A DNA stretch of 64,000 bases, from NCBI GenBank assembly GCA_016200085.1, contig JACQFL010000008.1:1-64000 (forward strand), in the 5' to 3' direction. A model generated the notes under the pieces. It had not been told where the DNA came from. It made no database searches and saw only the letters and a list, made by a program, of their open reading frames with translations. Positions 13,461-27,179 of the stretch are shown here, piece by piece; the first letter of the stretch is position 1; each line of letters opens with the position of its first letter. Source of the stretch: Candidatus Rokuibacteriota bacterium. GTDB lineage: Bacteria; Methylomirabilota; Methylomirabilia; Rokubacteriales; CSP1-6. Made by a program: the position numbers and the translations under genes.

Positions 13461-13506
13461 GTCCCGCGGTATCATGAGGCGTCGCGATCGCGCGGCAGAG
13501 GGTGCC

Positions 13507-14379
13507 ATGAGCCACGTGCGCTACATCGACAAGACGCGCGACTACTATCGTGGCGTGGGCTACGACCGGCCCTACCAGTGGGCCCACTTCGACGACATCC
13601 CGTTCGTGCGGCTGGACAAGCCCCTGTCTGACAGCCGGCTGGGCGTGGTCACGACCAGCGAGATGGCGCTCGTCGACGTCCCGGGCATCTGGGACGACAA
13701 CCCCGGCTCCGACGTCTACGCGCTGGCGACCGACACGCCGATCGAGCGGCTGTGCACGAAGAAGGACTCCTACGATCGACACGCCACCACCCTCGACGAC
13801 GTGAACGCCTACCTGCCGCTCACGCGGCTGGCCGAGTGCGTCGCCGCCGGGCGGCTTCGTGCCCTGGCCCCGCGCTTCCAGGTGATCTACTCGCAGTACA
13901 GCCAGCGCAAGACCACGACCGTCGACGCGCCGGAGATCCTCCGTCAGATGCGCGAGGACCGCGTCGACGTCGCCGTCCTCACCGCCATCTGACCCGTGTG
14001 TCACCAGACCGCCAGTCTGGCGGCCCGGCATCTCGAGGCCAACGGCATCCCGACGGTCGTCTTCGGCTGCGCCCGGGACATCGTGGAGTGGTGCGGCGTC
14101 CCGCGCTTCGTCTTCAGCGACTTCCCGCTCGGCAACCCGACCGGCTGCCCGTTCGACGCCGCGATGCAATCCGAGGTGGTCGAGCTCGGTCTCCGCGCGC
14201 TCGAGACGGCGTCGGCGCCGGGCACGACCGTGGTGAGCCCCCACGAGTGGAGCCCGGACCACTCCTGGAAGGAGCGCGTCTTCACGGAGGCGCAGCCGTT
14301 CCTGTCCGAGGAAGCGACGGAGAAGTGGATGAAGCGGAAGCAGGCCTACCGGGAGCTGCGGGCGACGGGACAGGTGTGA
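13507..14379 (+). CDS. PrdB/GrdB-like selenoprotein (in-frame TGA = Sec162)
   Basis: Selenoprotein B family (glycine/sarcosine/betaine/D-proline reductase-like), 290 residues if the TGA at 13990-13992 is read as selenocysteine. Upstream and downstream parts are in the same frame: ...DRVDVAVLTAI-U-PVCHQTASLAARHLE... The UxxC redox pair (Sec162, Cys165) and the conserved PVCHQT, GIPTVVFG, VPRFVFSDFPLGNP segments run straight across the TGA, so a real stop would remove the most conserved half. A hairpin meeting the bacterial SECIS pattern follows. The protein likely performs a thiol/selenol-based reductive reaction; there is no PrdA or other reductase subunit next to it, so the substrate is unknown. 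Automatic pipelines would split it into two genes. Confidence 0.85.
14009..14023 (+). promoter_or_regulatory. Candidate bacterial SECIS hairpin
   Basis: CCGCCA (14009-14014), loop GTC, TGGCGG (14018-14023): a perfect 6-bp stem. The apical loop starts 22 nt after the TGA codon and begins with G, within the general bacterial SECIS rules (loop roughly 16-37 nt after UGA, a G among the first two loop bases). A second, competing hairpin CCAGAC/GTCTGG (14004-14020) is also possible. Confidence 0.6.
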
Positions 14380-22631: not shown

Positions 22632-23372
22632 CTACGCGCCCAGCGTTCGGAGGATGTCCTCCTTCAGCTGTACCGCCTCGGGGCTCGACAGCTTGCGGGG
22701 ATGGGGGAACGGCACGTCGACGATGCCCTCGATCCGCGCCGGGCGGGCAGACAGGATCAGGATCCGATCGGCGAGGTGGATGGCCTCCTCCACGTCGTGC
22801 GTCACCAGGAGGCAGGTGGGGCGCTCCTGGGCGAGGATGCGCCGCAGCTCGAGACGCATCCGGAAGCGCGTGAGGGCGTCGAGGGCCGCGAGCGGCTCGT
22901 CCATGTAGAGGATCTCCGGACGGGGCGCGAGGGCGCGGGCCACCTCGACCCGCTTGAGCATCCCGCCCGAGAGCTCGTGGGGATACGCGTTCTCGAACCC
23001 CTCGAGCCCCACCAGGTGCGCGTAATGGTCGGCCAGGCGCCGGCGCTCGGCGATCGGCTGGCCTCTCAGGCCGAACATGACGTTCTGCCGGACGGTCAGC
23101 CAGGGGAAGACCGATCCGAGCTGCGAGATCACGATGCCGCGCGGGCTCGGCCCGGTCACCGGGATGCCGTCGATGCTGACCTCACCCTCGTCGGGCCGTT
23201 CGAAGCCGGCGATGATGTTGAGCAGCGTGGTCTTGCCGCAGCCCGACGGGCCCACCAGGGCCACGAAGTCGCCGTCCCCGACGGCGAAGTCGATGCCCTC
23301 CAGCACCGGGAGCGCGCCCCTCGACGTCCCGAAGGACTTCGCGACGTTCTTGACCCGGATCTTATCGGCCAT
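22632..23372 (-). CDS. ABC ATPase, nitrate/sulfonate/taurine type
   Basis: Cytoplasmic ATPase of 246 residues. Walker A is GPSGCGKTTLLNII, the Q-loop SQLGSVFPWLTV, the signature LSGGMLKRVEVARAL (normally LSGGMrQRv), Walker B ILYMDEPLAALDA and the switch His in LLVTHDVEEAI. It belongs to the SsuB/TauB/NrtD group. Start overlaps the permease gene end by 11 nt. It powers the importer formed with the upstream permease and the selenocysteine-type binding protein. Confidence 0.92.
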   Translation of the reverse strand: MADKIRVKNVAKSFGTSRGALPVLEGIDFAVGDGDFVALVGPSGCGKTTLLNIIAGFERPDEGEVSIDGIPVTGPSPRGIVISQLGSVFPWLTVRQNVMFGLRGQPIAERRRLADHYAHLVGLEGFENAYPHELSGGMLKRVEVARALAPRPEILYMDEPLAALDALTRFRMRLELRRILAQERPTCLLVTHDVEEAIHLADRILILSARPARIEGIVDVPFPHPRKLSSPEAVQLKEDILRTLGA

Positions 23373-24138
23373 AGCGCCACCGCACCTCCTTCAGACCCTC
23401 GAGCCGCCGGATGAGGCCGTCGAGGAGCAATCCGAAGACGCCGATGAGCACCATGCCGGCCACCACGAGGTCGTACCGGTTCCCGGCGTTGCGCGAGTCC
23501 ATGATCAGGAAGCCCAGCCCGGAATTGAGCGCGATCATCTCGGCCGCGACGAGGACGAGCCACGCGACACCCAGGCTCACGCGCATGCCGACGATGATGT
23601 GGGGCACCGCCGCCGGGAAGACGACGAGGCGGAACAGCGTGAGCCCCGAGACCCCGAAGTTGCGGGCGGCCCGGATGTATTGCTGGTCGATCGTGTGCGC
23701 CCCGGTGGTGGCGTTGACGACCATGGGGAAGAACGCCGACAGGAAGATGAGGAACATCGGGGAGAAGTCGCCCACCCCGAACCAGATGATCGCGAGCGGA
23801 ATCCAGGCGATCGGCGAGATGGGGCGCAGGATCTGGATGAGGGGATTGACCGCCGTGAAGATGCCCTTGAACCATCCCATGCAGATACCGAGCGGGATCG
23901 CCAGCGCCGCGGCAATCAGGTAGCCGACGAGCACCCGGTAGAGCGACGAGGTCACGTGCTTGATGAGCAGGCCTTCCCGGGCCAGCTCGACGAGGCCGGC
24001 CCCGACCTGCCAGGGCGTGGGCACGATCAGGCTCCGCGTGCTCACCACGGCGAGCCACCACGCGCCGATGAAGAGCGCGATGAGGGGCAGGGGGCCGAGC
24101 AGCGTCGATCGCACCGCCGCGGCGGACGGACGCATCAT
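23362..24138 (-). CDS. ABC permease, SsuC/TauC type
   Basis: Inner-membrane permease of 258 residues with about six helices. The EAA loop is seen as TIDQQYIRAARNFGVSG followed by LTLFRLVVFPAAVPHI, and the C-terminal MVLIGVFGLLLDGLIRRLE is typical of this family. ATG at 24138 overlaps the preceding stop (ATGATG), so it is translationally coupled to the SCO-PCuAC gene. Works with the ATPase encoded next. Confidence 0.9.
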   Translation of the reverse strand: MMRPSAAAVRSTLLGPLPLIALFIGAWWLAVVSTRSLIVPTPWQVGAGLVELAREGLLIKHVTSSLYRVLVGYLIAAALAIPLGICMGWFKGIFTAVNPLIQILRPISPIAWIPLAIIWFGVGDFSPMFLIFLSAFFPMVVNATTGAHTIDQQYIRAARNFGVSGLTLFRLVVFPAAVPHIIVGMRVSLGVAWLVLVAAEMIALNSGLGFLIMDSRNAGNRYDLVVAGMVLIGVFGLLLDGLIRRLEGLKEVRWRYGR

Positions 24139-25160
24139 TTCTTGCGGACGGTGACGCGGGTGGCGACGTCGCCGGCGCGGTCGAAGGTGAGGGTGACGGG
24201 AAGCGTCGCGCCGGGCCGGGTCGCCGGCTTCCGCCCCATGCACATCAGGTGCAACCCGCCCGGCTTCAGCTCCACGCGGCCGCCCGCCGGCACGTCGATG
24301 ACGCCGGCGGCGACCGGTCGCATGCCCAGCGCGCCGCTCGCGTCGCGGTGATACTCGTAGAGGTGGAGCATCTCGCACGCCGCCGAGCGGACGGCGACGA
24401 GCCGGTCGGGCTCGCTTCCCGCGTTCTGGATCGTCATGTAGAGTTCGCTCGACTCGACCAGGGGCGGCAGCACCGGCGTCCACGAGTCCTCGACGGTGAC
24501 TCCTGGTCGGCCGCCCGCCGCCACCGTGCGCACGGAGGAGGCCGCGGCGCCCGGCGCCGAGAGCAGCTGCGCGAGGTCCTCGGCCATGGCCCGGGCCTGG
24601 GTGCCGTAGGGAAAGACCAGGCGCGTGAAGCCTTCCGCGTCCACGGCGATGACGATGCTCGTGTGGTCGATCGCGTACCCGGAGCCGTCCGTCGCGTCGG
24701 TCTTCCGCACGTACACGCCGTAGCGCGCGGCCACGGCGGCGATCTCCTGCGGGGTGCCGGTCATCCCCAGGAACGACGGATGGAAGTGCGTCAGGAAGGC
24801 GGTGAGCCGCGGCGGCGCGTCGCGCTCGGGATCGACGGACACCATGACGACCTGCACGCGCCGGGCCTTCTGCGGGCCGAGCTCGCCGAGGGCCTGGGCG
24901 ATCTCGGTGAGCGTGGTCGGGCAGATGCCCGGGCAGTGGGTGTAGCCGAAGTAGAGCAGCACGAGCTTGCCGCGAAGGGCGCTGAGGCGCTGCCGCTGGC
25001 CGGACTGGCTGGTCAGCTCGAAGTCGGGCGCCCGCGTCGGCGACTGGCTGGCGATGCCGTGGAGCTTGGGGGCGCGCTCCTCGGCGCGCCCGGGCGCGGC
25101 GACACCGAGCGAGCCCACGAGGACGACCAGCGCGACGAGAAGCCGTCCACCGACCTTCAT
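24135..25160 (-). CDS. SCO1/SenC-PCuAC copper chaperone fusion
   Basis: Exported protein of 341 residues with signal peptide (1-26). Residues about 40-195 are a SCO1/SenC thioredoxin-fold domain with the copper-binding CPGICP (CxxxC) after LVLLYFGYTH and the ligand His in YAIDHTSIV. Residues about 215-340 are a PCuAC domain with the Met/His copper site: MLHLYEYH, then GMRPV, then PGGLHLMCMG. Both domains normally deliver Cu(I) to the cytochrome c oxidase Cu-A centre and are usually separate neighbours. Here they are fused and sit inside an ABC importer operon, coupled by 4-nt overlaps on both sides. This suggests that the importer handles copper, a copper ligand or a thiol-reactive substrate; that link is inference. 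Confidence 0.9.
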   Translation of the reverse strand: MKVGGRLLVALVVLVGSLGVAAPGRAEERAPKLHGIASQSPTRAPDFELTSQSGQRQRLSALRGKLVLLYFGYTHCPGICPTTLTEIAQALGELGPQKARRVQVVMVSVDPERDAPPRLTAFLTHFHPSFLGMTGTPQEIAAVAARYGVYVRKTDATDGSGYAIDHTSIVIAVDAEGFTRLVFPYGTQARAMAEDLAQLLSAPGAAASSVRTVAAGGRPGVTVEDSWTPVLPPLVESSELYMTIQNAGSEPDRLVAVRSAACEMLHLYEYHRDASGALGMRPVAAGVIDVPAGGRVELKPGGLHLMCMGRKPATRPGATLPVTLTFDRAGDVATRVTVRKK

Positions 25161-26218
25161 TTCGTGATGGTGATGTCCACGGGCTTGGCGTTCTTCACGA
25201 AGCTCTCGTCCACGTACTTCTCGTAGGGCACGGGCCGCGTGATGATGCCGGCCTCCAGCGAGAGCTGCATGATCTCGTCGAACTCCTTGCGCACGAGCCG
25301 GAGGTCGCCGTAGGTGACCCGGTCCGGCGGGTTGCTGAGCACGAAGCGCAGCACGTCGGCCTTCTGATTGAAGAAGCGCGCGCCGGCCGCCACGTCGGCC
25401 GCGGTGGACCGGTTGTCCGCCGAGCGATCGATCCAGGTCCCCGAGGCCATCACGTAGTCCACGAGCTGCTGGACCCGGGCGCGCTCGTTGCGGATCAGCT
25501 CCTCGCGCACGGTGAGCACGCAGCAGATGTAGTTCGGCCACTCGTTGCGCGTCATGTAGAGCGGCCGCGCGTATCCCGCCTTCTCGGCCACGGCGCCGAA
25601 CGGCTCGCCCGTCGCGTACGCGCTGACCGCGCCGGCGTAGAGGGCGGCGGGCATGTCGGGCGGGTTCATCTCCACGATCTCCACGTCGCTCATCGCCATG
25701 CCGTGCTGCTTGAGGAGTCGCCGCACGAACAGGTAGTCGACGGCGAACCGGCTCGGGATGGCCACCCGCTTGCCCTTGAGGTCCTTCATGCTCTTCGCCG
25801 GAGAGTCGGTCTTGACCATCACGACCGCGCCCGATCGATGGCCGAGCGCGACGATCTTCACCGGCACGCCCTTGTCCGCCAGCTCCATGGCGAGGGGGGC
25901 GAGGAAGTACGCCGCCTTGATCCGGTTGGCCATCAGCGATTCCTTCAGCTCGGGCCAGCCGCTGAACTTGGCGTACTCCGCGAGTCCCTCGGGCAGGATC
26001 TTGCCCGTCTTCGCGGCGTGCTCGATCGCCGAACAGGCGACCGGGAGCGTGAGGTTTCAGGTGACGGGCAGCCCGCCGACCTTCAACGGATCGGCCGCCC
26101 CGCTGGCCAGTACGATACCGAGCACCACGGTGGCCGCGCCGCCGATCGCCCAGACGCGCCGGGACCACCAGCGCCGCGACCTCACACGCCCCGTGACTTC
26201 GACCGTCGCTGTGCCCAT
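25157..26218 (-). CDS. NMT1/NrtA-type ABC binding protein with in-frame TGA (Sec54?)
   Basis: Periplasmic binding protein, 353 residues if the TGA at 26057-26059 is decoded. It begins with a basic region and a hydrophobic signal/anchor (WAIGGAATVVLGIVLASG), then KVGGLPVT-U-NLTLPVACSA, then FSGWPELKESLMANRIKAAYFLAP, GHRSGAVVMVKTDSP and AIPSRFAVDYLF. From memory, related ABC binding proteins carry Cys at exactly this place (LPVTCxLTxPV). The downstream reading is uninterrupted and highly typical, and a SECIS-like hairpin follows the TGA. I therefore read it as selenocysteine rather than a nonsense mutation. Start uncertain (ATG 26218, GTG 26248 or GTG 26185; none has a strong ribosome-binding site). 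First gene of the importer operon. Confidence 0.75.
26023..26043 (-). promoter_or_regulatory. Candidate bacterial SECIS hairpin in binding-protein gene
   Basis: Reading the minus strand, the stem CGGTCGCC, loop TGTTC and stem GGCGATCG follow the TGA after a 13-nt spacer. This is an 8-bp stem with one G-U pair. The apical loop starts 21 nt after the TGA and has G as its second base, fitting the general bacterial SECIS rules. Confidence 0.55.
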
Positions 26219-26358: not shown

Positions 26359-26437
26359 GACCCCGTCGTCTAGCCTGGCCCAGGACGCGACCCTTTCAAG
26401 GTCGAGATCGCGGGTTCGAATCCCGCCGGGGTCACCA
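26359..26437 (+). tRNA. tRNA-Glu (anticodon TTC)
   Basis: All arms can be folded. Acceptor GACCCCG pairs with CGGGGTC. The D-arm is GTC-TAGCCTGGCCCAG-GAC, the anticodon stem CGACC/GGTCG holds loop CTTTCAA (anticodon TTC), and the T-arm is GCGGG-TTCGAAT-CCCGC. CCA is encoded. The GTCTAG D-arm start is usual for tRNA-Glu. Its 3' end is the attachment site of the island to the right. Confidence 0.93.
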
Positions 26438-26777: not shown

Positions 26778-27179
26778 TCATGTCGCCGTGTCCAGAAACT
26801 CGCGCGGGCTTGCGATCAGAATGCCCCGGAACCGTTTGAGCCTGAGAAGGTGTTGATCGCCCGTAACGATCACGTCGGCCCTGGCCGCGAGGGCACATTC
26901 CAGGATACGGTTGTCGGGCTCGTCCTCGCGCACGACGTTGACCGACTCCGCGGCGGTGACCACGACGGCAAAGCTGCGAATGGCCCGCGCCGCTTCGTGG
27001 GCACGCGTCACCGTCCAGCGAAACTTTCGGAGCAAGACACCCTCGATCTCTTCGAGGATCGGCGGCGAGATGAATACTTCGATAATCCCGGCGCGGCCGA
27101 GGGCGAGGACCTCGTCGGCGGTGCCGGCAAAGTTCAAGGCGGAGATGTAGATGTTGGTGTCGGCAACGACCCGGGGCAG
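26778..27179 (-). CDS. PIN-domain toxin (VapC-like)
   Basis: About 133 residues. The PIN core starts PRVVADTNIYISALNFAGT (first acidic residue of the RNase site in ADTN), continues with VFISPPILEEIEGVL, EDEPDNRILECALAARADVIVTGD (EPDNRILECA and TGD carry the other acidic metal ligands) and ends in FRGILIASPREFL. It should act as an Mg-dependent RNase. No ATG/GTG/TTG covers the conserved ADTN start; the best start is CTG at 27179, one base after the antitoxin TAG. Either a rare CTG start is used or the start codon has mutated, which would leave only a truncated reading from an internal TTG. Confidence 0.8.
   Translation of the reverse strand: MPRVVADTNIYISALNFAGTADEVLALGRAGIIEVFISPPILEEIEGVLLRKFRWTVTRAHEAARAIRSFAVVVTAAESVNVVREDEPDNRILECALAARADVIVTGDQHLLRLKRFRGILIASPREFLDTAT

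Follow-up and report, generated by a model that had tools for sequence, protein, structure and literature searches.

Results

Architecture of the locus

The gene under study lies on the minus strand of the window, by which we mean the whole stretch of 64,000 nucleotides that was analysed. It occupies positions 25157..26218, begins with an ATG at 26218, ends with a TGA at 25157-25159 and comprises 353 codons, provided that an in-frame TGA at 26057..26059 (minus strand; codon 54) is read as selenocysteine. The product is an NMT1_2/SsuA-like substrate-binding protein with an N-terminal membrane anchor or signal, and read-through across codon 54 yields the motif LPVT-U-NLTLPVAC. Sec54 corresponds to Sec71 of the protein designated P0001 and to column 13 of our protein alignment A3. 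The Pfam NMT1_2 match (109 bits, residues 61-294 of P0001) spans the position of the TGA, and together with the orthologues described below it provides the homology on both sides of the UGA that is demanded of a selenoprotein. A previous reading of the DNA without database searches, here termed the sequence-only reading, had placed a TGA in this motif and at these positions within an otherwise intact NMT1-type binding protein, and this proved correct in coordinates as well as motif. A Cys-Cys pair (ICCVL) is encoded at 25520..25525 on the minus strand, and its second cysteine (codon 233) falls into column 192 of A3. Across the 47 rows of this alignment the Sec/Cys of column 13, the second cysteine of column 192 and His86 are all invariant. 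The 13/192 pair is even retained in a family of only about 22% identity (L111-L113), while L118 lacks both residues. The AlphaFold model of the binding protein reached a pLDDT of 95.1.

The binding-protein gene is followed on the same strand by genes for a SCO1/SenC domain fused to a PCuAC copper-chaperone domain (24135..25160; Pfam PF02630, 142 bits, and PF04314, 94 bits), an ABC permease (BPD_transp_1; 23362..24135) and an ABC ATPase (22632..23372). The same permease and ATPase cassette is present at most loci of the family, and the two genes accompany that for the binding protein in nearly all cases. The fold and the co-encoded permease and ATPase thus identify the protein as the binding component of an ABC importer with NMT1/SsuA fold. 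Divergent from the start of the operon lies a gene for tRNA-Glu (TTC; 26359-26437, plus strand), the sole tRNA of the window, and a PIN-domain protein (26778-27137, minus strand) with a small gene upstream of it resembles a toxin-antitoxin pair.

The window holds a further candidate selenoprotein, as the sequence-only reading had stated. It is a PrdB-like gene at 13504-14376 (plus strand) with a TGA at 13990 in the motif AIUPVC, scoring 94 bits against 300 for TIGR04483. Homologues are present in 28 genomes of the class, nearly all of them with an in-frame TGA.

Selenocysteine machinery

The source genome (3.57 Mb, 94.6% complete) contains the equipment for selenocysteine insertion. Genes for tRNA-Sec (69.8 bits, anticodon TCA), selA (587 bits) and selB (363 bits) are located within five kilobases on a single contig (C54), and selD (335 bits) is found in the same genome away from this cluster. 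All scores exceed the curated cut-offs. The expectation that the host possesses this machinery was therefore borne out, and the absence of sel genes, named beforehand as a possible refutation, does not apply. The selD reading frame (G000:C12:115796-116740) itself carries a single in-frame TGA; in many bacteria SelD is known to be a selenoprotein.

Exchange of selenocysteine and cysteine among homologues

Among 95 genomes of the class we identified two orthologues, 70% and 56% identical to the window protein, and each of them has one in-frame TGA at the identical codon. A control search of the class for more distant binding proteins returned about sixty matches, and none but the two orthologues contains such a TGA. 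For an unbiased scan, which covered one genome per GTDB species, the query alignment began after the selenocysteine and thus favoured neither Cys nor TGA. It returned 79 loci, 78 of them readable (L055 is frame-disrupted), from about ten phyla. At the position in question 65 of the readable homologues encode Cys (TGC or TGT) and 13 have TGA; no other residue occurs. The presence of cysteine homologues at the UGA position, a further hallmark of selenoproteins, is hence evident, and the condition set beforehand, Cys or TGA at position 54 in most homologues, was fulfilled without exception. Including the window gene, fourteen Sec-encoding genes were found, and these derive from Rokubacteria, Methylomirabilota, a deltaproteobacterial MAG, Gemmatimonadota, Acidobacteriota and Planctomycetota. 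The two samples overlap, in that L041 and L063 of the scan are apparently the class genomes G083 and G030. Searches for relatives in viral contigs yielded none, and a plasmid search gave only distant relatives with less than 60% identity.

The family falls into two clades, one including the window gene (clade 1, 41 genes) and one characterized by the motif UHLTCP (clade 2, 38 genes). The motif LPVTCHLTCPV, which the sequence-only reading had given for relatives, does exist and forms this second clade. In a tree calculated without the Sec column, selenocysteine and cysteine replaced each other at least five times, although this is a quick tree with several long branches. SelA was detected above cut-off in 12 of 13 TGA genomes as opposed to 10 of 37 Cys genomes (Fisher p 5e-5). 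The exception among the Sec genomes is L079, for which selA was not detected and the tRNA-Sec match was only marginal. Two loci contain tandemly duplicated Sec binding-protein genes with the TGA in both copies (L056, positions 146 and 5986; L090, positions 4689 and 5938). Sec forms from Gemmatimonadota are distinguished by Met-rich inserts. A twin-arginine-like motif occurs in the signal region of 32 of 33 clade-1 Cys forms (e.g. L026-L064), compared with three of the seven clade-1 Sec forms tested; it might indicate export after folding or metal loading.

A conserved SECIS-like hairpin

A bSECIS-like hairpin is located at 26023..26043 (minus strand). It begins 13 nt past the TGA and consists of an 8-bp stem (CGGUCGCC/GGCGAUCG, with one G-U pair) and the 5-nt loop UGUUC, such that the apical loop lies 21 nt after the TGA; stem length, loop length and the 13-nt spacing are those that the sequence-only reading had described. 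The published model for bacterial SECIS elements calls for a loop of 3-9 nt, a stem of 4-16 bp and a distance of 16-37 nt from the UGA, with a G within the first two loop positions that is often followed by G or U (PMC13188914). The hairpin of the window gene meets this model in every respect. In the same register, six of six pairs and an NGUNN loop are present in all eight clade-1 Sec genes and in none of the 33 clade-1 Cys genes, in which at most five of six pairs can form (p 1e-8). This p value ignores relatedness; nevertheless the Sec genes do not constitute a single clade on the tree. Seven of the clade-1 Sec genes have TGT as loop codon and L041 has AGT, such that the encoded Cys is changed to Ser while the GU is retained, which points to a constraint on the RNA. 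The folding energy of the window hairpin is unremarkable in such GC-rich DNA (z -0.54) and was dropped as uninformative; it is the conservation that is unusual, and we rely on this instead. In clade 2 a scan with simple rules found a hairpin in only two of six Sec genes. Some bacterial SECIS elements are known to deviate from the model (PMC13188914).

Copper proteins in the gene neighbourhood

A SCO1 gene adjoins 35 of the 41 clade-1 genes and none of the 38 clade-2 genes. It is also missing beside the Sec genes from Gemmatimonadota and Methylomirabilota, and the copper proteins are consequently not obligatory partners of the binding protein. About 20 clade-1 loci contain a small cupredoxin-like gene with a C-x2-H-x4-M motif, and no Pfam match was obtained for the three that were tested. 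Members of this cupredoxin-like family (FACTAHASGQM) are membrane-anchored and encoded between SCO1 and the permease in L045 (7515-7970), L047 (7490-7924), L058 (3745-4248) and relatives.

Comparison with known binding proteins

SaoX of the Sec-assisted organometallic system (NCBIfam NF040735) is a member of the same broad fold family, has both Sec and Cys variants and shares the Cys-Cys pair. However, the window family reaches only 56.6 bits against the curated 300-bit cut-off of this model and is about 22% identical. A true SaoX in its Cys form (480 bits) has no cysteine at the Sec column of the window family, and its only CxP motif (TCDP) aligns with Gly163-Glu-Pro of the window protein, some 150 residues away. 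The Sec motif of SaoX is UxP (PMC13188914), which UNLTLP of the window protein does not match. Most likely, therefore, the selenocysteine of SaoX is placed elsewhere in the fold than Sec54. SaoB (NF040727; motif CUxxT) likewise carries selenocysteine in an ABC binding subunit (PMC13188914), but differs from the UNLT/UHLT motif of the window family, and the SaoB model matched none of 47 family members at E 1e-5. Membership in SaoX or SaoB was rejected because of the sub-cut-off score and different Sec site in the one case and the missing match in the other.

The closest solved relative is the ligand-binding component of an ABC transporter from S. aureus, zinc-bound according to its title (PDB 3un6; E 7e-47, TM 0.83), which was ranked first by both Foldseek and HMMER. 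This protein keeps the Cys-Cys pair and has His at the Sec column, but no selenocysteine. Binding proteins of the SsuA/NrtA/CmpA type (NMT1 families) share fold and transporter architecture, but the Cys/Sec pair was not seen in the nitrate and sulfonate binding proteins aligned. Ligands in these related proteins are nitrate, bicarbonate, sulfonates and pyrimidines. The top-scoring NCBIfam model is that of the SsuA family, whose cut-off of 163.5 is not attained (129 bits).

A 2026 review of the prokaryotic selenoproteome lists SaoX, SaoB and SaoP as ABC selenoproteins; NMT1 and the window family are both absent from it (PMC13188914). No such protein appears in the main text of the deep-Sep paper, and literature searches on selenoproteins of Rokubacteria or on binding proteins with Sec produced nothing relevant. 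The comparison with existing catalogues rests on NCBIfam and on the 2026 review, which cites Haft and Gwadz 2023 and Haft and Tolstoy 2025. We probably deal with a selenoprotein family that is new but of a kind already known, although a prior description cannot be fully excluded. The earlier assertion that such a protein is not a standard entry is thus only partly upheld, as Sec-containing ABC binding proteins are known from SaoX and SaoB, while the window family is not among them.

Discussion

The exchange of UGA and Cys codons, the presence of the machinery and the conservation of the hairpin are shown by our data. Actual insertion of selenocysteine is inferred from sequence alone, but we consider it very likely, indeed close to certain on such evidence, that UGA codon 54 specifies this amino acid. 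The alternative that the gene does not encode a selenoprotein, but is a pseudogene, contains a base-call error, has an ordinary stop with translation resuming at the downstream ATG (25933), or inserts another amino acid, is all but excluded. In its favour it can be put forward that a 258-codon reading frame beginning at 25933 exists, that protein-level data on selenocysteine are absent and that the window gene itself terminates with TGA, such that this codon also works as a stop. On the other hand, 14 genes from several phyla share the TGA at exactly this codon, always opposite Cys and together with the sel machinery and a conserved hairpin. A restart at 25933 would in addition entail loss of the export signal and of the first cleft loop, both of which are conserved upstream of it. 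Since independent genomes from several phyla have the TGA at this very codon, chance read-through, a pseudogene and a sequencing error at 26057-26059 are ruled out. General recoding of TGA is ruled out by the gene's own TGA stop and by the distant homologues of the class that lack in-frame TGA. Thus, none of the three refutations that had been named for the sequence-only reading was upheld, and its interpretation is supported overall.

Fold family and transporter cassette are likewise established, whereas statements on the ligand remain inference. We propose that the internal UGA would be decoded by SelB and tRNA-Sec, steered by the SECIS hairpin in the coding region 21 nt downstream, and that the resulting anchored or signal-bearing binding protein is exported and would serve an ABC importer together with the cassette's permease and ATPase. 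The selenocysteine would reside in the loop following the first beta strand, which borders the ligand cleft in such a fold, and would cooperate with the invariant second cysteine of the Cys-Cys pair; spatial closeness of the two residues is deduced from knowledge of the fold. Most likely the two residues would together bind a soft metal, in the first place Cu(I), or a complex of it, and copper could be passed to or from this site by the operon's SCO1/PCuAC proteins. The ligand is probably copper or another thiol-loving compound, because genes for copper-handling proteins adjoin, and we regard its capture outside the inner membrane as likely. For a soft-metal site we see slightly more arguments than against it, but binding data are not available. 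Copper specifically is inferred from context only, and here the balance tips slightly to the negative side: the SCO1, PCuAC and cupredoxin-like neighbours and the Met-rich inserts favour this metal without proving it. The previous suggestion that SCO1-PCuAC in the same operon may signify a copper or thiol-reactive ligand is accordingly confirmed with regard to the recurring context, not with regard to binding.

Two other functions deserve consideration, both of which appear unlikely to us. Selenocysteine and the invariant cysteine could constitute a redox pair (selenenylsulfide) instead of a metal site, kept reduced by the SCO1-like protein, with the redox state switching binding or transport. 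Redox activity characterizes most known Sec residues. SCO1 is a member of the thioredoxin-like superfamily and adjoins the gene in most clade-1 loci, and even the distant family has both Cys/Sec13 and Cys192, which are jointly absent from L118. However, the His at the Sec position of 3un6 agrees with metal binding but not with a disulfide, clade 2 lacks SCO1, and the distance between Sec and Cys has not been established. Alternatively, by analogy, an organic ligand such as a thiol, sulfonate, sulfinate or organometal could be bound covalently by, or react with, the selenocysteine. The desulfinase DszB has the same fold and uses its Cys27 in such a way. In line with this idea, the best NCBIfam model is SsuA, albeit below cut-off, and the fold search also returned structures of DszB. 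SaoX, which is assigned to a proposed organometal system, is distantly related and has the Cys-Cys pair as well. This is opposed by the operon neighbours, which are recurrent copper proteins and not sulfur enzymes.

Returning to the metal site, a bolder reading is an ABC importer with high affinity for copper, or else a copper relay in the periplasm, in which Cu(I) would be held between Sec and Cys and which would be served by SCO1/PCuAC. We rate this as less likely than not. Should it be true, copper acquisition based on selenium would extend, in its Sec and Cys versions, over about ten phyla. An ABC-type route for copper is hinted at by the SCO1, PCuAC and cupredoxin-like genes that recur nearby, and no ABC-type copper importer was found in the review on bacterial copper that we searched.

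Most predicted selenoproteins are redox enzymes, and very few binding subunits of importers with selenocysteine are on record, namely SaoX and SaoB, whose roles are still open (PMC13188914). Standard annotation likely truncates or discards the Sec members of the family described here. The window gene originates from a soil bacterium, and isolated strains of Roseateles, Massilia and Brevifollis are among the carriers of the Cys form. The clean series of Sec and Cys forms over many phyla allows a direct test of what selenocysteine adds to ligand binding.
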